From NCBI GenBank assembly GCA_018645005.1, contig JABGPJ010000110.1, positions 39,429-103,428 of the forward strand: a stretch of DNA of 64,000 nucleotides, written 5' to 3'. Below the pieces are notes generated by a model. It was not told where the DNA came from, did no database searches, and saw nothing but the letters and a program-made list of their open reading frames with translations. Source of the DNA: Deltaproteobacteria bacterium (lineage in GTDB: Bacteria; SAR324; XYD2-FULL-50-16). Shown here in pieces: positions 5,667 through 62,917 of the stretch; positions within the stretch are counted from its first letter, which is position 1; each line of letters opens with the position of its first letter. Both the position numbers and the translations under genes were made by a program.

Positions 5667-6629
5667 ATGAAGCTGATAGAAGAACGGCTCGATAAAGTAA
5701 ATGAGACCCTTGAAAAAGAATCTGCAGAATGGCGGCCTAAAGATCGAGAGGGCAGATCCGGCGGCCTCATTCTGTTACGTCAGGATATTCCAACTCTGAT
5801 CGTTCCTGATTTGCACGGTCGGCGTAATTACCTGCCGGACTTGTTGCGTTACAAATTTAAAGATAAAACTGTTTTTGAACTTTTGAAAACAGACAGGATT
5901 CAGGTCGTCTGCGTCGGTGACGGGATGCATTCGGAAAGAAGAGGCAAGGAGAGGTGGCAGACCGCTTTTGCTGAGTATAAAAACGGGTTTGAAGATTGCC
6001 CGGCCATGACTGAGGAAATGACTGAGAATTTTCAGACGATGGCGATGGTCATGAAACTTAAAGTGGCGTTTCCACAACAGTTCCATTTTCTGAAAGGTAA
6101 CCATGAGAACATTCTGGACGAAGCCGGTAATGGCAACCATCCGTTCAGAAAGTTCGCGGCTGAAGGACCTATGACGGCCTCTTATGTCAAAAAGTTCTAT
6201 GGCGATGCTTTTTTAAACAGGTATGATCGATTTGAGAAGAATCTGCCGCTGTTGACCCGTGGCAAGTATTTTGTGATCACCCACGCTCGTCCCAAGAAAG
6301 TGTATTCGATAGATGAGGTGATCAATTTCCGGTCTGAACCCGCAGTGACCGAAGGACTCACCTGGACCCGCAGTCAGAATGCTGAGGAGGGAGCAATTCC
6401 GAGTATGCTGAACGAACTGATTGATAGCTCAATTACTCCCCGTTTCTGGTTTTGTGGACATACGTCCCTGAAAACCAGATACAAGTATTGGCCTGAGGAC
6501 GCTTTGATCGAAATTCACAACCCTGACTTAAGGACTGTGGTAATCCTGGATCCGTTAGTGCTCTTTGATTTGGAACGGCATATTGTCGATCTTTCACAAT
6601 CCGCCAACGAAGCCCACCAGCCTGAATAA
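5667..6629 (+). CDS. Calcineurin-like metallophosphoesterase with GDxxHxER signature
   Basis: 320 aa. Metal-site motifs in order: VPDLHG, VGDGMHSER, KGNHEN, THA and CGHT, matching the five blocks of the PPP/calcineurin-like fold. The second block departs from the usual GDxxDRG: it reads GDxxHxER, as in the second paralogue at 55028-55984. The overall pattern recalls spirochaetal phosphoesterases of unknown substrate. No signal peptide, so cytoplasmic. AAGGA sits 8 nt before the ATG. The gene is followed by a GC-rich hairpin at 6675-6690. Confidence 0.85.
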   Translation: MKLIEERLDKVNETLEKESAEWRPKDREGRSGGLILLRQDIPTLIVPDLHGRRNYLPDLLRYKFKDKTVFELLKTDRIQVVCVGDGMHSERRGKERWQTAFAEYKNGFEDCPAMTEEMTENFQTMAMVMKLKVAFPQQFHFLKGNHENILDEAGNGNHPFRKFAAEGPMTASYVKKFYGDAFLNRYDRFEKNLPLLTRGKYFVITHARPKKVYSIDEVINFRSEPAVTEGLTWTRSQNAEEGAIPSMLNELIDSSITPRFWFCGHTSLKTRYKYWPEDALIEIHNPDLRTVVILDPLVLFDLERHIVDLSQSANEAHQPE

Positions 6630-51495: not shown

Positions 51496-51815
51496 AGGTA
51501 GTTCACATTAACGTTGGCGTCCTGTCCGAAGAGTGCATTGTTATTTCCCGGGACAGCTGTCGCGATCTAAAAAGGCCAATTAGTATATTCGTTGGAAGGT
51601 ATTGCTTTCCTTTCAGGATTAACAAAACAATCCCGTATTGAAAAGGCATCATTTCGGCCAAAAGGCGGGATTGGCAACAATTCAGTTTGATAACCAAATC
51701 AAATAGGTATAGTATAGCTGAAATAAATAGTTTTCGTTGACAAAACGAACCGTATGTGGTTGAAATTTAGTGACTGAATAAAGCGGTTCACTATTGAATT
51801 TTTTCAAAAAATGTG
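51496..51815 (+). other. Divergent intergenic region upstream of the paralogue cluster
   Basis: About 320 bp between rsgA and the first paralogue, AT-rich and without a gene. It contains the promoter at 51737-51766 and a further TATAGT-like -10 near 51709. Confidence 0.4.
51737..51766 (+). promoter_or_regulatory. Candidate promoter of the four-paralogue cluster
   Basis: TTGACA, 18-bp spacer, TGAAAT. A consensus -35 and a 4/6 -10, 50 bp before the first start codon. Confidence 0.45.
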
Positions 51816-52478
51816 ATGAGATTGCAATCAAACGAAAATTTTAAGGATTCTTGGGATGAAGCCCTTGTACAAAAACTTCACGGTGAAATAGCTTTAGACT
51901 TTCTTCGTTGTGAGAATGATCATGCGGTCAACGCATCGGTTGAATTTGTGAAGTTTTTGCACCAAAAAGGTCTGGATAACCAAAATTATCCCTTTTATAT
52001 GCCGCTATTTCTTCACGAGAATGAGAAGGTCATCAGTGCTTTTTTAAGTGACGGGAAAATTCTGAATAGCTTAAAAAAACTGAAACGAAGCCGGCATTTC
52101 ATCGGGCTTTGTTTTGATTTACTGAGGCAGTTTTCTCTGGATACTGTTTATGAAAAGACATTAGAGACCCTTCTTTTGGTTCTCAATCTTAGTTATCGTG
52201 ATGCAGTGTTCGGTTTCGCAAGTTATCCACTATCCCTGAACGAGTTGAATTATATCAGCAAGTTTCTGGATAAGGGCAAACCGCAAGCTAGTAAAATAAA
52301 CAGGATAATTCTTGACATACTCGCGGATTTAGGCGACTTAACTACGAAAGATACAACTGAGCCAACGTTGCTGGAAGTTTGTGCCCGGGCAAATAAGATT
52401 CGAAACGTCTTTTTTGACAACAGAGCTTCTATGGCCGAAATTATTCCGGAGACCATGTTGGTCAAGGGTATCAAATAA
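51816..52478 (+). CDS. Uncharacterised paralogue family, member A
   Basis: 220 aa, unrecognised. Predicted all-helical, cytoplasmic, no signal. It shares with the next three genes a set of blocks: ENYPL-like NQNYPFYMPLFL near residue 55, a YxKTLETLLLVLNLSY segment near 113, SLNELNYISKFLDKG near 140, INRIILDILADL near 165, and ANKIRNVFFDNRASMAEIIPETMLVKG at the C-terminus. It is the most divergent with member D. Start ATG 51816 (a GTG lies one codon before). First gene of a probable operon; 67 bp before member B. Confidence 0.8.
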   Translation: MRLQSNENFKDSWDEALVQKLHGEIALDFLRCENDHAVNASVEFVKFLHQKGLDNQNYPFYMPLFLHENEKVISAFLSDGKILNSLKKLKRSRHFIGLCFDLLRQFSLDTVYEKTLETLLLVLNLSYRDAVFGFASYPLSLNELNYISKFLDKGKPQASKINRIILDILADLGDLTTKDTTEPTLLEVCARANKIRNVFFDNRASMAEIIPETMLVKGIK

Positions 52479-52545
52479 TGTAATTTGTTGAGAATGCGTG
52501 CTTTCTGAACTGAGAAGTCCAAAAAATAGTTTACAAGGAGATGAA

Positions 52546-53238
52546 ATGGCCGAAAATAGCGAAACGATTCGCCCAGAGTGGACAACAGAGTCTACCCATC
52601 GGGTTGAAAGCCTCATTTTAAGGAATGCTTTTTCAAGCAGAACCCCCGATGCGACAGAGACCGCCATGGCATATACCCGGTATCTGAGACTGGCAAGAAT
52701 GACAAGCGAAAACTACCCACTGTTTCTGTCACTGTTGGAAATTGAAAACCACTATGTCATCGATTCATTGATCGGTGATGACGACCCTTTTGTCTTTTTT
52801 ACGCCGATTCAACCGACACGCCACTTGCTGAGGGAGTGTTTCAGGTTGCTGACCTTCTGGCATCCGGGCGGCATTTACCCTAAGACCATTTCTATCGTCT
52901 TGGGCGTTTTACAGGCGGCTTATAACCATGCTAAAGACGGCAACGAGATTTACAGGGTTTCTATCAATGACATCAATAACCTTGGAAAGCATTTGAATAA
53001 GGATTCTGGTCAGACGGATCCGGTCAACCGGGCAATTTTAGACGTTCTGGATCGCCTTTCTCTGCTTGAAGGTCAGGGCGACGAAGAGATTGAAGAGTTA
53101 GCCAGGCATTGTCACAATATCAGAACCTATTTCTTTGATCGCAGACGAAAAATGGAAGATATTATCCCACAGGTTCTTCTTGTGAAATCAGACTATCTTG
53201 TGAAAACGGTCGGCCCAAATTTTGTTTTTGAAGACTAA
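52546..53238 (+). CDS. Uncharacterised paralogue family, member B
   Basis: 230 aa from ATG 52546, chosen for AAGGAG 6 nt upstream over a GTG at 52498. Blocks: SENYPLFLSLLEIENHYVIDSLIGDDDPFVFF, YPKTISIVLGVLQAAYNHAKDG, VSINDINNLGKHLN, VNRAILDVLDRL and HNIRTYFFDRRRKMEDIIPQVLLVKS (quoted as family marks, each near residues 50, 108, 140, 160 and 190). Closest to member C. All-helical, charged, no membrane segment. Not a recognised enzyme. Confidence 0.82.
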   Translation: MAENSETIRPEWTTESTHRVESLILRNAFSSRTPDATETAMAYTRYLRLARMTSENYPLFLSLLEIENHYVIDSLIGDDDPFVFFTPIQPTRHLLRECFRLLTFWHPGGIYPKTISIVLGVLQAAYNHAKDGNEIYRVSINDINNLGKHLNKDSGQTDPVNRAILDVLDRLSLLEGQGDEEIEELARHCHNIRTYFFDRRRKMEDIIPQVLLVKSDYLVKTVGPNFVFED

Positions 53239-53256
53239 TAAAAACCGGAGGTAATC

Positions 53257-54111
53257 ATGTTATTGACTGATAGACGTAAGATTTATTCGCAGATAGAAAT
53301 AGAACAGATACGAAACGACGTTCTGCAGCAGATTTTGAAGTGTGGTACCCCGGATGCTGTAGAGGCATGCATCACTTACGCTCGGTTTCTGAGTCTGACC
53401 GGTATTACTAATGAGAACTACCCGCTTTTCATTAAGGTGCTGGAGGCTGGTAATCACTGGGTGGTTGACGGACTGATCGGTGATAGGGACCCCTTTCTCT
53501 TTTTGAGTTCCATTCAACCCAATTACAATATTCTTGAATCGTGTTTTAAGCTTCTCACCGAAAAACATCCGGGTGAGCTCTATCCCAAATCTCTTTCGGT
53601 AGTCCTTGGTGTTCTTCAAGCGACATACAATGTTCCTGAAGACGGATACAACATTTACCGGCTCACAATTTACGACTTGAATACACTGGGCAAGCATCTG
53701 AACGAAGAGATTGGCCAGGAAGACTCTTTAAACCGGGTGATTTTAGATATTCTTCATAAAATTGCGCAGCTTAAAGGGATGCTGGGAGCAGAAGGACTGG
53801 AAGGTGAAGACCGGGACAAGGAAGAGCTTGCGATACACGCTAATGAAATCATGAGTCATTTTTTCGATGACACTAAACGCCTCTTCCAGGTGATCCCACA
53901 GGTGCTGCTGATCAGAAAGGATTACCGTAATTATGAAATACAGCCGAGAGCAGAAGTACGTTTTGAGGATTCCAGTATTTATGACCTTGACAATATGGCC
54001 GACGATCCATACAGCGACTCTGCATCCGATGAGGAGTTTGAGGAGGAGGTCTACGAAGAGGAAGAGGTAGTGGAAAGCCCCGAGGAAAATCTTGAGCCCG
54101 ATCCGGCATAG
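53257..54111 (+). CDS. Uncharacterised paralogue family, member C, with acidic tail
   Basis: 284 aa with GGAGG 5 nt before the ATG. The core (about 1-225) matches member B block for block: NENYPLFIKVLEAGNHWVVDGLIGD, LYPKSLSVVLGVLQATYN, NTLGKHLNEEIGQ, NRVILDILHKI and FFDDTKRLFQVIPQVLLIRK. It then adds about 50 acidic residues (EEFEEEVYEEEEVVESPEEN) absent from the others, probably disordered. 18 bp after member B, so cotranscribed. Confidence 0.82.
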   Translation: MLLTDRRKIYSQIEIEQIRNDVLQQILKCGTPDAVEACITYARFLSLTGITNENYPLFIKVLEAGNHWVVDGLIGDRDPFLFLSSIQPNYNILESCFKLLTEKHPGELYPKSLSVVLGVLQATYNVPEDGYNIYRLTIYDLNTLGKHLNEEIGQEDSLNRVILDILHKIAQLKGMLGAEGLEGEDRDKEELAIHANEIMSHFFDDTKRLFQVIPQVLLIRKDYRNYEIQPRAEVRFEDSSIYDLDNMADDPYSDSASDEEFEEEVYEEEEVVESPEENLEPDPA

Positions 54112-54127
54112 AATTTAAAGATATCAA

Positions 54128-54147
54128 GGCCGGTTTCTGAACCGGCC
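54128..54147 (+). terminator. GC-rich hairpin after member C
   Basis: GGCCGGTT-TCTG-AACCGGCC, an 8-bp perfect stem and tetraloop, 17 bp past the stop. No T tract. It may end the A-B-C transcript or protect its 3' end. Confidence 0.5.
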
Positions 54148-54294
54148 GGGAACCGATCGTGCAGATTAAAAAGAAGTAAGAATTTACCCCGTGATTTGGT
54201 TCCTCTCTGTGCTTTCGGGAAATCTTTCAACCACCTAATAACTCTGTCTCATTCGAGATATCTGATCAAGAAACATTGTACGCTGGAAACGCAT

Positions 54295-54963
54295 ATGGCT
54301 AAAGAAGAATTCAATCGTTTCATTCAGAATACGATGCTTGAAATTATCGAGTGCAAAGATGTCAGGAGTTCGAGCGCCCTTTATGCCTACGCAAATTTTC
54401 TTAATAGAAAAAAGACCCGCTACGAAGATATCCCACTTTATCTGAAGATTCTCAAAACGAACAACCAATACGCCATCGATGCATTAATGAGGGGCCATGT
54501 CGCTGTAAAATTCTTCGATTTCATTCGAGTTCCCAATATTTATGTGCTGAAAGGTATTTTTGAAATTCTTGAGCTTTATGGGAAAAATAGTCTTTCGAAC
54601 CAGACATTGAAATCTTTTTGTGGCTTTTTCAAGCGGGTGTACCGGATGGCTGCTGAAGGCTTTAGAATCTGTCCACTGACGGTTGCCGAAGTGAACAGTC
54701 TCGGGAAATATCTGGATGAGAAAAAAACACAAAATTACTATTTTAATCGTGAAATACTGGATATTCTCTTCTTTTTAACCGAGCTGGATGATGATTGTGA
54801 GAGTAGTCCTGAGATGAGAGTCGTTGCACGTCAGGCCAGTCGAATTCGTTCCGATTTCTTCGATCAGAAGCGCTCACTCGCTCAGTCCATGACGGAAGTC
54901 GCCCTTAATAAATCAACCGATGAAGGCCCTGGTATCTCACCCGAAGGCGCATTCGTCGAGTGA
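54295..54963 (+). CDS. Uncharacterised paralogue family, member D
   Basis: 222 aa from ATG 54295. An in-frame start at 54196 would add 33 residues unlike the family, so it is not used. Shared blocks: YEDIPLYLKILKTNNQYAIDALMRG near residue 43, GFRICPLTVAEVNSLGKYLDEK near 120, FNREILDILFFLTEL near 146 and ASRIRSDFFDQKRSLAQSMTEV near 182. It diverges most in the centre. Separated from member C by 183 bp and the hairpin at 54128, so it may have its own promoter. Confidence 0.76.
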   Translation: MAKEEFNRFIQNTMLEIIECKDVRSSSALYAYANFLNRKKTRYEDIPLYLKILKTNNQYAIDALMRGHVAVKFFDFIRVPNIYVLKGIFEILELYGKNSLSNQTLKSFCGFFKRVYRMAAEGFRICPLTVAEVNSLGKYLDEKKTQNYYFNREILDILFFLTELDDDCESSPEMRVVARQASRIRSDFFDQKRSLAQSMTEVALNKSTDEGPGISPEGAFVE

Positions 54964-55027: not shown

Positions 55028-55984
55028 CTACATATCACCTAATAGATATTTCTGTTTTTTCTGTTTCAGGTCAGCATGTCGAATCTTATATTCCAGGCTG
55101 TTATTGAAGGTAAGATAGGTGCTTTTATCGACCAGATTACTATATAGAATAACATGATTTTTAGAGTCCAGGATATCGACCCAGACAGAATCATCTGTTC
55201 CCCATTTCCACATGGGATTGTGGCCGACGATAAACGGATGTTCCTTTGAGCATCCCAAGGCAGCTCTTTGTCTATCGAGATCATCCGGGCCGTACTCTTT
55301 TTTACTGGGCGAGGAACGCGTTTCGTTCAGGCGGTTCCAGGTGAGTTGTCTCAGCAGCGGTCCGGATTCGGCGCCACGGATGTCGATAAGCTCATCTCGG
55401 TAAATACCACCTCTCACAGGGCCCGCATGGACTGCCAGGAAATGCTTGTGGATAACAAAAACCGGCAGTGAATTGTAGAAAGTCTGCATCAGGTTGACAT
55501 AGTCTTTTCCCCTGGTTTCCTGGACGGCATTGTGGTACGCCAGCCCCTGTTTGATACCGCTCTTTCCGAGAAGTTCACTGAAGGTGTCATGATTGCCAAG
55601 CAGATAAAAAACGTTATCCGGATAGTCATTGATCAAATGGATAATGATATCCATAATTTCAATTGAGGTATCCATTTCCTGGAGATGTCCTACCCTTTCA
55701 TCATGAACTGAGTCTCCCAGAAATATCATGATGGCTTTATTTTGTTTCAGTTTGTACAGGTTCTGGGAATCCATCAGTATCGCCTTTAAATTCTGCTTGT
55801 TTGCATGTAAATCTCCAACGATGATCACCTCGCGATTATCATCTTCCGGAAATTCCAGCAGTCCGCCCGGTTTTTTGTTCGTGTTGAGTGGTCGGATGGA
55901 TGGGTCGATTGCTAATACGTTTCTGATGGCCAACTGTACTTTTTGATGATGTGTTAGTTCGCCGTAGGTGTAGTAGTCAGGCAT
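55028..55984 (-). CDS. Calcineurin-like metallophosphoesterase, second GDxxHxER paralogue
   Basis: 318 aa. Metal motifs in order: VGDLHANKQN, LGDSVHDERVG, LGNHDTF, VHAGP and VGHNPMW. As at 5667-6629, the second block is GDxxHxER rather than GDxxDRG, so the two are probably relatives. No signal peptide. The C-terminus is Lys/Gln rich. It is convergent with member D, 64 bp apart. The substrate is unknown; a Ser/Thr phosphatase or a diadenosine-polyphosphate hydrolase role would both be guesses. Confidence 0.84.
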   Translation of the reverse strand: MPDYYTYGELTHHQKVQLAIRNVLAIDPSIRPLNTNKKPGGLLEFPEDDNREVIIVGDLHANKQNLKAILMDSQNLYKLKQNKAIMIFLGDSVHDERVGHLQEMDTSIEIMDIIIHLINDYPDNVFYLLGNHDTFSELLGKSGIKQGLAYHNAVQETRGKDYVNLMQTFYNSLPVFVIHKHFLAVHAGPVRGGIYRDELIDIRGAESGPLLRQLTWNRLNETRSSPSKKEYGPDDLDRQRAALGCSKEHPFIVGHNPMWKWGTDDSVWVDILDSKNHVILYSNLVDKSTYLTFNNSLEYKIRHADLKQKKQKYLLGDM

Positions 55985-57020: not shown

Positions 57021-57344
57021 CTTCTCCCCCAATCCGGGGAATATGATGTGTTACTGTGCGTTAAAAAGATGAATTACCGCAGCGATTTTATTTCGTCGTG
57101 ACCTGTGTTACGAGGCGAAGATCGCATCCGAAATTACCAGGTAGGGAGGGTTTTCAGGTTTATTAGCTCAGGATCGCTATTTATGCCGCAAATGGTATAA
57201 AACTGGCTTATCCTAAATAGCCAAATAAAAGGGTTCATTCATCCTGACCGCCGCGATTCGTTGCAAAAAAACGAACAGCCATTAACTGATAATGAACCTT
57301 CCTGAAAAACCGCCTGAACTGTTCAACGAATGAGAAGGGAGATC
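57021..57344 (+). other. Intergenic region upstream of the class III FBPase
   Basis: No gene. It holds a weak hairpin (TCCCC/GGGGA, 57025-57040) right after the PilZ stop, which may be its terminator. The remainder shows nothing clear. Confidence 0.4.
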
Positions 57345-59168
57345 ATGAGTCCGCTGAAACCTGTCGAACGGTCTTTGAGAAGCCAGAACGGCTCCATCAT
57401 TGACGATTTATCCCAACAAATGCTTCAGCTTGATATTCAACTGAACTCAAACATTCCGTCGACCCTGTTTATCAGTGATCTTCACGGGGCCGGAGACCGC
57501 TTTATTTCGATTCTGCGGGGACGTTTCGGCATGTTGTATCAGACCTGTATCGAGGCCCTGCCCAAAACCTTCAGCTCGCACAAAATCCAGTATATCGTCG
57601 ATATCATCCGCAAACAGCGTTATTTTAAGGACGATAGTGTCAATATGGATATCCAGGACATAATCACCTGCTTTGTTCAGATTCTGAAATATAAATTCAG
57701 CACAATTGAACACAATATTAATGATGTAATTCAGGATGAATACCGTGATATCATAAGCCGGATGATATCCGGCTTGCCAGTCCCAGACCCGGTTTATGAA
57801 GTGAGTATCGTCTCTCATCGAATTATCGAACATCTGGCGTCTGCCATCAAACGGATTCTGCTGGATCGTATCATGGTTCTGGGGGATGTATTTGATCGAG
57901 GGCCGCAACCTGACAAAATAATTCGAATTTTGGCATCCAAGTGGTACCGGAACATGATCCATTATGTCTTTGGCAATCACGACATTTTATGGATGGGAGC
58001 CGTCGCCGGCAACCGGTCTCTTATTGCCGAAGCTATGCGCATCTCCAGTCGTTATGATCACATGGAACTGCTGAAGCGCCTGGGGTTCGATACCTCAAAA
58101 CTGGTAAAATTTGCCAAAAAGGTCTATCCACCTAAAAAGGTTACTGGGAACTTCAAGGCCCAAACCTCCCAGGCTCGAAGTATGGAAAAGGCCCTGGCGA
58201 TCATTCAGTTTAAGCTTGAGGAAGAGACGATTAAAAAACACCCTGAATATGAGATGGACTCGCGGCTCTGGCTGAAAAGACTCATGAAAATGATTGTGGA
58301 TGATGATGTGAAAGAGTTGAACGACACCCATTTCCCGACAATCGATCTGAAAAACCCGCGCCTGCTGTCAAAAGAAGAAAAAGTGGTCATCGACGATCTG
58401 GAGATACAGTTCAAAACCAACAAAAAGCTCAAAAAGTTGATGCGATTCTTCTTTGAAAAGGGGGAAACATTTATTATTCACAATAATATGCTGAATATTC
58501 ATGCGTTGATTCCCTCAACTGAAAACGGTGAGTTTGACGAATTTCTGAGTCGCAAGGGACAAAACTTGTTGAACCATATCCAGAGGAGCATCAAGCGGAT
58601 TGGACAGGCCTACCTTTCAGGTAAAAAACAGAAGGAGGTCGATTTGGCGTTGATGTTTTATCTATGGTGTGGACCAAAGTCTCCTTTTTTCGGCAAAGAT
58701 GCCATGAAAACCTTTGAACGGTATTTTCTGATAGACAAGACGACCCATAAGGAAAAGACCCTATACTGGTCTAAAAACATGGAGAAGAAAGAGTTCAAGA
58801 AAAAAATTATGGATGAGTTCGGCATTAATCGTGTTATTTATGGTCATACTCCGGTTGACTTTACGAAGGGAAAGAGTATGGCCAGTGAAGATGGGGTCGC
58901 AATCAATATCGATGGTGGTTTTGCTGCCGCCTACTATAACCGTGGTCATGCGTTGGTGCACACACCGCATCAGCTATATGGTATTATTTTGCCTACACCG
59001 GAGGAGATGAAAAAGGCCTCCACCAATCTGGAGACCGTTCCATTATCTGTAGAAATCATAGATGAATTCACCTCTCCGGTTAAGTTCAGAGATACCGCCG
59101 AGGGCAAGATAATTAAGAAAAGACGGGACGAGATTCTGAAAGAGCTGAAAACGATTCAACCTGAATAA
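57345..59168 (+). CDS. fbp: Fructose-1,6-bisphosphatase class III
   Basis: 607 aa from ATG 57345 with AGGGAG just upstream (ATG 57330 also possible). It hydrolyses fructose-1,6-bisphosphate in gluconeogenesis. It belongs to the metallophosphoesterase superfamily: [54 protein letters not shown] and [14 protein letters not shown], then [28 protein letters not shown] at the C-terminus, diagnostic of the Firmicutes-type enzyme. Canonical GDxxDRG is kept, unlike the other two phosphoesterases here. 50 bp before the GlpX-like gene. Confidence 0.93.
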
Positions 59169-59218
59169 CGATTCTTAGGAAAGACCTTTGGCCACAATGT
59201 ATCAAAGTGCGAGGAATA

Positions 59219-60166
59219 ATGGATATTAACTTTGGGATGGAAATGGTACGTGCGACCGAGATCGCAGCATTGAGTGCCGCACGCCTGCAGGGACTGGGAG
59301 AAGTGAGTAACATTCTCAATTCTACCAGGGAAGCCTTTTATAAAACCCTCAATCGGTTACAGATTGAGGGGGTGATTAAGAATGATAGATTTATGGGCCG
59401 GGAAAATACCTTCCAAATGCCCATTAAAGTGGGAAAGGGCGGATTGAAGAAAGATATCCTGGCAATCGCTCTTGAAGGTCACAACGCTGCTGCAATTGGA
59501 CGGAACAATGCCATGTCCTGTGGTGTTTTGACAGTTGAGGGGGGTATTCAGGCCCTGCCGAACCTGAGTATGTTTAAAATTGTCGTTGGTCCGGAAGCAT
59601 ACGGTGTAGTTGATATCTTGCAACCCCCTGCGATTAACATTAAACGGGTCTCCCGGGCCCTGAAAAAGTATACCGAGAGTGTCACGATTTGCATTCTGGA
59701 CCATGCACGCCATCACCGTCTGATTCACGAAGTAAAAGAGACCGGCGCCCGGATCAAACTGATAACCGAGGGAGAGATTTCCGGCTGTCTGGCCGCTATC
59801 ACGGGTAAAAAAGTCGATATGTTCATGGGGTACGGTTTTGCACCAGAAGGCGTGATGATCGCTGCTGCCGTTAAATGCCTTGGTGGTTATTTTGAAGGGA
59901 AGATATTTTATGAAAACGAGCGAGATAAAGAATTTGCCCGATCAGAAGGTATTGATGATTTTGAGAAGATTTTCAGAGCTGAAGATTTGATTTTGACCAA
60001 TGATGTTGCTATCGCAGCCACCGGTGTGACAGATGGAAAATTTTTAGAAGGTGTTGATTTAACTCCCAATGGAGCGATTACGCACTCCTTTATCGCCAGG
60101 GGGGAATCCCACACATATCGGAAGCTTGAAACACGACACTTTTTTGACTATAAACCGGTTTATTAG
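59219..60166 (+). CDS. GlpX-like protein (class II FBPase fold) lacking metal ligands
   Basis: 315 aa from ATG 59219, with GAGG 4 nt upstream. It aligns end to end with GlpX: MVRATEIAALSAARLQGLG, IVVGPEAYGVVDI, TICILDHARHHRLI, YGFAPEGVMIAAAV, TNDVAIAATGVTDG and RGESHTYRKLETRHF. Aligned to E. coli GlpX from memory, active-site residues are lost: Asp33 is Leu33, Lys29 is Val29, Glu57 is Arg57, Asp85 is Ile83, Thr90 is His88; Glu88 (Glu86 here) and the APEG Glu are kept. FBPase chemistry is therefore unlikely. It sits directly behind the intact class III enzyme, so a regulatory or ligand-binding role is plausible. Confidence 0.85.
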   Translation: MDINFGMEMVRATEIAALSAARLQGLGEVSNILNSTREAFYKTLNRLQIEGVIKNDRFMGRENTFQMPIKVGKGGLKKDILAIALEGHNAAAIGRNNAMSCGVLTVEGGIQALPNLSMFKIVVGPEAYGVVDILQPPAINIKRVSRALKKYTESVTICILDHARHHRLIHEVKETGARIKLITEGEISGCLAAITGKKVDMFMGYGFAPEGVMIAAAVKCLGGYFEGKIFYENERDKEFARSEGIDDFEKIFRAEDLILTNDVAIAATGVTDGKFLEGVDLTPNGAITHSFIARGESHTYRKLETRHFFDYKPVY

Positions 60167-61693: not shown

Positions 61694-62917
61694 TTAAACT
61701 TTCACTTTTTCAGGTGAAGGCGTGCTTTCGCTTTGTCCAGGTGAAGGTACACGAAGATTTTCACTAGGGGGTTGAGGTACTTGAACCCTTCCCCGTAAAG
61801 AGTTGTTTTCTCCCTGGGGCAGACCAGGAGCGCTTCTCTGGGGCTGCACCTGACTGGCTGATGCGATATCCCCTGGATGCTGGGCAGATCCTGCACGCGT
61901 CCTTCTGACTGGCTCCATTGATTCTGCGTTTGCGATCTCCTCATTTGCTTCACTTGCCTCTTCTTCCGGCATTTCATCCAAGGCGTGCACAGCTTCTCGG
62001 AGATAAGTAACGTACAGTTCTCTGGACTGTTCGGTGGCTTTTTGCAGTTTTGTATCCTGAATTTGGTTGAGCAAATCGAGAAGGCTGTCTCCGTCCAACA
62101 TTTCAAGTTCCGGAGCGATCTTTCTCTTTTCGATGGTGCTGAACTGCAGATTATTGAGGATCTTGTTCCGGGTTATCTCTTTTGACTTGGCGCGCTTGAG
62201 AGTGGCTTCCAGGTCTTTGAAAATCAATGTTTCACTGAGGGAAAGGTATCGTTCTCCGGTTTCATCGTAAGTGACGAAATTGTGATGCAGAATCTGCTCA
62301 AGGTTGTAGTAGACATGATCGATAATGTCCTGCCCGCCTTCGATCGGTAGAAAAATTTTGGTATAGTTGATATCACTGCCGGCAATAAATATTCGAAAAC
62401 CGATATGAATATCCAACCCTTTTTTGATCGTCTCAGACAGAAATAAATCCCCTGGTTTGGGAACCGGCACTTTATTGACCATTTCTACATGACTCAGCAG
62501 TCTGCCGGCCATGTCCGGCCGCTCTTGCAGTTGACCCATTAATTTTTCTGCCTCTCGCTTGTAAAGGCTATTGAGCTTGCCTTCCAGCAGCACGTTGGCG
62601 ATCCCAAAATGGCTTGAGCGAGGTTCTGCACTAAGATAGTAACCCAGAACAGACTGATAGAGGAGTTGGGCGAAGTTGGACAGTATTTGTTCGTCATCGG
62701 CTTGGAGGGGAACAGCGATAATTGCACGCTCCGGGTTGCTCAGTTCAGTATCCAGGGTCAGACGGACAGCGGCCTTGATATGTAGAAAGCTTCTCAGACT
62801 CTCTTTAATGGACTCTATGATGGTTTCCTGATCATCAAATTTAACATAAGGATCTGTTCCCAGCATATAATTTCTGCCAGGACTGCAATCACTGCGTTGC
62901 CAAATAGATTCACTCAT
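61694..62917 (-). CDS. Hypothetical protein with disordered C-terminus
   Basis: 407 aa, not recognised. Residues 1-300 look folded: PERAIIAVPLQADDEQILSNFAQLLYQSVLGYYL, DIHIGFRIFIAGSDINYTKIFLP and HVYYNLEQILHHNFVTYDETGERYLSLSETLIFKDLEATLKRAKS are mixed helix and strand. After an acidic stretch (EEEASEANEEIANAES) the last 90 residues are rich in Pro, Gln, Ser and Gly. No signal peptide or membrane segment, so cytoplasmic. Divergently placed to nothing obvious; 215 bp downstream of the M23 gene on the same strand, possibly cotranscribed. Confidence 0.7.
   Translation of the reverse strand: MSESIWQRSDCSPGRNYMLGTDPYVKFDDQETIIESIKESLRSFLHIKAAVRLTLDTELSNPERAIIAVPLQADDEQILSNFAQLLYQSVLGYYLSAEPRSSHFGIANVLLEGKLNSLYKREAEKLMGQLQERPDMAGRLLSHVEMVNKVPVPKPGDLFLSETIKKGLDIHIGFRIFIAGSDINYTKIFLPIEGGQDIIDHVYYNLEQILHHNFVTYDETGERYLSLSETLIFKDLEATLKRAKSKEITRNKILNNLQFSTIEKRKIAPELEMLDGDSLLDLLNQIQDTKLQKATEQSRELYVTYLREAVHALDEMPEEEASEANEEIANAESMEPVRRTRAGSAQHPGDIASASQVQPQRSAPGLPQGENNSLRGRVQVPQPPSENLRVPSPGQSESTPSPEKVKV

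Follow-up and report, generated by a model that had tools for sequence, protein, structure and literature searches.

The window analysed here, a 64,000-nt stretch of a SAR324 contig (JABGPJ010000110.1) from a 3.28-Mb assembly with 68% completeness, contains two adjacent genes that encode, respectively, a class III fructose-1,6-bisphosphatase (FBPase) and a protein related to the class II FBPase GlpX (Table 1). The GlpX-like reading frame is intact from its ATG at 59219 to the stop codon ending at 60166; an alternative in-frame GTG at 59207 is an unlikely start because it overlaps the ribosome-binding site. No terminator-like site was seen on the + strand of the spacer that separates the two genes. 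The encoded protein matches the Pfam GlpX family (PF03320) from end to end (292 bits, E 4e-87) and scores below the cut-off of the NCBIfam class II FBPase equivalog TIGR00330 (189.6 vs 259.3 bits).

Table 1. Positions in the window of the two genes, their spacer and the active-site codons discussed in the text
Feature	Coordinates	Strand	Basis or remark
Class III FBPase (PF06874), 612 aa, distinct subfamily always preceding the GlpX-like gene	57330..59168	+	Pfam 363.5 bits
Spacer, 50 nt, with Shine-Dalgarno-like GAGGAA	59169..59218	+	Between class III and GlpX-like genes
GlpX-like putative pseudoenzyme of class II FBPase fold, 315 aa	59219..60166	+	Catalytic metal and nucleophile positions lost
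Leu33 codon (E. coli Asp33)	59315..59317	+	Alignment
Asp56-Arg57 codons, at E. coli Glu57, clade-invariant	59384..59389	+	Alignment
Ile83-Ala-Leu-Glu-Gly-His88, replacing the metal/nucleophile motif DPIEGT (E. coli 85-90)	59465..59482	+	Alignment
Arg164-His165, kept (E. coli Arg166-His167, 6-phosphate site)	59708..59713	+	Alignment
Glu184-Gly-Glu186 for the furanose-binding DGD (E. coli 186-188)	59768..59776	+	Alignment; DGD role from PMC10289334
Glu210, kept (E. coli Glu213, APEG)	59846..59848	+	Alignment

The upstream partner carries the metal motifs and signature blocks of the class III family (Bacillus subtilis Fbp type, PF06874). Its motifs DLH, GDVFDRG, GNHD, NIH and GHTP show little or no variation among 16 orthologues, with D50, H52, D186, N216, H217, H391 and H506 unchanged in all of them, and align with those of canonical class III enzymes, so that every calcineurin-type metal motif is kept. 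Unlike the canonical enzymes, however, the partner belongs to a divergent subfamily (~344-385 bits to the Pfam profile, compared with 916 bits for a canonical copy from Desulforhopalus) and is accompanied by an apparently dead class II protein. Its AlphaFold2 model was poor (pLDDT 66.5). In-frame stops or a frameshift interrupt the class III gene of one genome (G589:C76:4406-6213), whose GlpX-like gene has an open frame; this may be an assembly error or a real loss.

Several other reading frames of the window deserve mention. A 407-aa ORF at 61694-62917 (-) lacks a Pfam match and is kept beside the pair in SAR324 relatives. Four consecutive paralogous ORFs of ~220-285 aa, with 26-45% mutual identity, occupy 51813-54963 (+); the one that was scanned (54196-54960) gave no hit in Pfam. 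The ORF at 55028-55984 (-), close to the FBPase pair, encodes a calcineurin-like phosphoesterase distantly similar to the product of 5667-6629 (+) (25% identity, E 6e-13).

Residues of the GlpX-like protein were numbered by reference to GlpX of E. coli MG1655 and paired by MAFFT, hhalign and phmmer. In the window protein, Asp33 is replaced by Leu, Asp85 by Ile, Thr90 by His, Tyr119 by Ser and Lys29 by Val, and Glu88, Arg166, His167, Gly187 and Glu213 are kept. The initial annotation had described a protein that retains the GlpX fold, length, Glu88 and the APEG glutamate (Glu213), lies 50 bp behind an intact class III FBPase and has lost Lys29, Asp33, Asp85 and Thr90, and these points held up: the family match spans the full length, the predicted fold is intact (see below), the gap is 50 nt, the partner combines PF06874 membership with its metal motifs, and the four substitutions are unambiguous, with Asp33, Asp85 and Thr90 restored by none of the alignments made. 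The loss of Tyr119 adds to that list. The further claim that Glu57 has become Arg stood only in part, since hhalign and one MAFFT run pair Glu57 with Arg57, whereas phmmer and the other MAFFT runs pair it with Asp56; the assignment depends on the alignment because the loop is one residue shorter in the GlpX-like protein, and both Asp56 and Arg57 are invariant across the clade described below. The change at Lys29 carries little meaning, because functional-looking GlpX proteins vary at this position too (Asn, Glu or Arg were seen).

The published roles of these residues give the losses their significance. In E. coli GlpX, metal ions are held by Asp85 and Glu213, and by Asp33 and Glu57, and in the M. 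tuberculosis enzyme the 6-phosphate is bound by Arg159, Arg161 and Tyr114 (PMC5892879). The DPIDGT segment constitutes the one needed metal site (M1), its threonine being the proposed nucleophile, and DGD binds the sugar hydroxyls (PMC10289334); replacing the equivalent threonine by Ala is enough to inactivate the class II FBPases of M. tuberculosis and F. tularensis. In the sugar and 6-phosphate pocket of the GlpX-like protein, Arg166-His167 and Gly187 are kept, DGD reads EGE, with Glu for Asp at both 186 and 188, Tyr119 is lost and Lys164 is mostly lost across the clade. Read against these roles, the aligned residues indicate that the catalytic half of the class II site is gone and suggest that the binding half is partly kept.

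To place the protein, its sequence alone was searched against ~85,000 species genomes, which yielded 28 relatives with 61-91% identity from SAR324 and from Desulfobulbales or Desulfocapsaceae, complete genomes and type strains among them. Genome-by-genome searches added further members, and 54 distinct orthologues from one SAR324 family and Desulfobulbales were readable. Cultured strains with the gene are Desulfofustis glycolicus, Desulfoprunum benzoelyticum, Desulfopila aestuarii and Desulfosediminicola flagellatus. Scores against the clade profile fall into two groups, 490-620 bits within the clade and at most 291 bits for all other proteins; in another phylum (that of genome G055), none of 291 genomes carried a clade member, every match being ≤267 bits. 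Asp33, Asp85 and Thr90 are lost in all 54 orthologues, whereas Asp33 and Asp85 are present in 39 of 39 canonical relatives. The Asp33 position is always Leu or Val, the Asp85 position always Ile, Val, Leu or Phe, and the Thr90 position is His or Tyr in 51 of the 54 and never Thr. The orthologues retain Glu88, Gly187 and the Glu at 188 and have Glu or Asp at 213, and two changes in the pocket are fixed in the clade (NDRF for GEGE, and D188E). By this comparison of sequences, the pattern of catalytic-residue loss is far beyond chance.

In a quickly built, midpoint-rooted tree, a single branch, fully supported by SH-aLRT, sets off the GlpX-like clade, whose stem is long (1.6 changes per site); within the clade, SAR324 members split first and the Desulfobulbales are nested. 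The branch support, the long stem and this branching order suggest a single origin, probably in or near SAR324, followed by transfer, the direction of which is tentative given the quick tree and its midpoint root. A clade-specific docking site in the conserved C-terminal tail was considered and dropped, as a similar PVY end occurs in a canonical GlpX, L091 (L137:3468-4421; G163:C3:203467-204417). This canonical-clade protein itself has Ala in place of both Thr90 and Pro86, Pro in place of Glu59 and Gln in place of Glu213, possibly a second, independent inactivation. Its genes next door resemble those for homoserine dehydrogenase, threonine synthase and phosphoglycerate mutase, and the genome encodes another GlpX.

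The clade is under strong constraint. For the eight pairs in which both genes could be measured (two of them near saturation), dN/dS was 0.02-0.08 for the GlpX-like gene and 0.04-0.14 for its class III partner, the former being lower in seven of the eight; at the protein level, the GlpX-like member was better conserved than its partner in 84% of pairs (53 members). An AlphaFold2 model computed from the clade alignment reached a pLDDT of 90.9 and a pTM of 0.89, and Foldseek matched it in the PDB (E ≤0.001) exclusively to class II FBPases, with query TM-scores of about 0.87-0.93 and one entry at 0.80. Thus, as expected of a regulatory pseudoenzyme, a conserved catalytic loss coincides with a predicted fold maintained under purifying selection.

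These data bear on two alternatives. Loss of catalytic residues is what a decaying pseudogene or a local sequence error would produce, but 54 distinct orthologues with open frames and the same losses, the low dN/dS and a long stem followed by slow evolution lead us to reject both as having a negligible chance of being correct. The argument of the initial annotation against decay is thereby borne out, and so are its predictions of purifying selection and of relatives that share the losses, each adjoining a class III FBPase. It is also very improbable that the protein is still a working class II FBPase that relies on substitutes, with Asp56 standing in for Glu57 and His or Tyr for Thr90: although the predicted fold is intact, as are Glu88 and Glu213 and apparently some of the substrate pocket, uncharged residues occupy the Asp33 and Asp85 positions in every member, and a single change of the threonine suffices to inactivate the known enzymes.

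The linkage of the two genes is strict. A class III match lies directly before the GlpX-like gene at every locus holding the latter, with a gap of 0-243 nt, commonly 0-20 nt in Desulfobulbales. Across an order-level set of 194 genomes, both genes were found in the same 43 genomes, neither in 151 and only one in none (canonical GlpX was present in 7 other genomes of the set); because the genomes are related, the 43 joint occurrences are not independent events, and the value from Fisher's exact test (~4e-44) should not be taken for a probability. The distances among the GlpX-like proteins and those among their partners are correlated (r = 0.89), as expected from co-inheritance alone. A wider conserved operon was rejected, since neighbours beyond the pair, among them genes for a hydrogenase, a sensor kinase, OmpA, MotA/TolQ and a polysaccharide deacetylase, differ between lineages. 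Linkage to, and co-occurrence with, one specific, active-looking partner is the second feature expected of a regulatory pseudoenzyme.

As to the metabolic setting, each of 16 genomes had a single PF03320 gene, so that the GlpX-like protein is their sole GlpX and no second, true GlpX was found elsewhere in them. Class I FBPase was absent from 17 of 17 genomes checked and class V from 15 of 15, and there was one class III FBPase per genome checked, except in Desulforhopalus IMCC35007. The genomes checked thus yielded no other recognised FBPase of classes I, II, III or V except the second, full-length canonical class III copy of this strain (L135, G065:C118:78025-79941, the 916-bit copy mentioned above), which makes Desulforhopalus IMCC35007 a natural case for what the pair adds. 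Phosphofructokinases are present, and the copies that were read carry GGDGS or GGDGT, which we take to mark the ATP-dependent enzyme. A cell with this type of phosphofructokinase needs a separate FBPase and has to avoid a futile cycle, for which a regulatory partner would make sense.

Taken together, the comparisons favour, with a probability of roughly 0.6, an obligate two-gene module in which an active class III FBPase is regulated or stabilised by a class II pseudoenzyme that is conserved and probably inactive. The two genes would form one operon encoding an obligate pair, with the class III enzyme hydrolysing fructose-1,6-bisphosphate in gluconeogenesis. The GlpX-like protein, derived from a class II FBPase, has neither the M1 metal site nor the nucleophilic threonine and for this reason would most likely be incapable of class II catalysis; it would probably keep a partial sugar-phosphate pocket (Arg164-His165, Glu-Gly-Glu, Glu86 and Glu210 in its own numbering), in which the invariant Arg57 possibly substitutes for the metal charge. 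We infer that this protein lacks activity, that it forms a complex with the class III enzyme, that its ligand is a hexose phosphate and that, according to which hexose phosphate is bound, it activates, inhibits or stabilises its partner, so that the class III FBPase would not run against the ATP-type phosphofructokinase of the same cell. As far as sequence goes, the initial annotation is supported in its view of a conserved pseudoenzyme obligately paired with a non-homologous, apparently live isozyme, which it may sense for or regulate in the proposed division of labour.

The main rival, and a real alternative, albeit an unlikely one, is that the protein is a neofunctionalised enzyme with a new, probably metal-independent activity on a sugar phosphate, such as isomerisation or a different mechanism of hydrolysis, required beside the class III FBPase. 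The obligate linkage is also expected if such an activity is co-required, and the substitutions in the pocket are fixed rather than random, His or Tyr dominates at the Thr90 position and the gene is strongly constrained. However, the alternation of His and Tyr at the nucleophile position and the free variation of Lys29, Asp61, Tyr119 and Lys164 across the clade would be unusual for a working site, and strict pairing with one isozyme fits a subunit better than an independent enzyme. Less likely still is a purely structural or assembly subunit that, free of any ligand, would hold the class III enzyme or help it to fold; the same linkage data and the short intergenic gaps fit this possibility, but the constraint on the sugar-phosphate positions E88, R166, H167, G187 and E213 has no obvious explanation in a scaffold. 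The regulatory pair that we prefer also has to accommodate Asp56 as a potential stand-in for Glu57, which, with several remaining carboxylates, may allow some metal binding. The more specific scenario, in which a class II FBPase turned into a dedicated allosteric subunit or sugar-phosphate sensor of a non-homologous class III FBPase, and in which the pair passed as one unit between SAR324 and Desulfobulbales, where it serves as nearly the sole FBPase system, we consider tentative, at somewhat under even odds.

The GlpX-like protein shares fold, length, ~30-33% identity and apparently part of the pocket with the class II FBPases of E. coli (3d1r), M. tuberculosis (6ayu) and F. tularensis (7txg), and is set apart from them by the absence of Asp33, Asp85, Thr90 and Tyr119 and by its score below the TIGR00330 cut-off. 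Loss of catalysis with retention of a phosphatase fold recalls pseudophosphatases such as the receptor PTPRU (PMC7320164), which, however, has an unrelated fold and acts in eukaryotic protein signalling rather than in central metabolism. The closer model for regulation by a pseudoenzyme is provided by the AdoMetDC prozyme and the dead paralogue of deoxyhypusine synthase of trypanosomes, conserved inactive homologues that accompany an active enzyme (PMC5201418, PMC3663545). The enzyme-activating dead paralogues that we found in the literature pair with homologous live enzymes, whereas the GlpX-like and class III proteins are non-homologous isozymes of one reaction; the open-access papers searched included none that describes a GlpX pseudoenzyme. 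Because cultured strains carry the GlpX-like gene, the idea of a pair is directly testable. Family-based annotation would label this gene a class II FBPase, so that FBPases would be miscounted in the genomes that carry it. If our reading is correct, Desulfobulbales and SAR324 would have an inactive enzyme tied to a non-homologous enzyme of the same reaction at a control point of gluconeogenesis.
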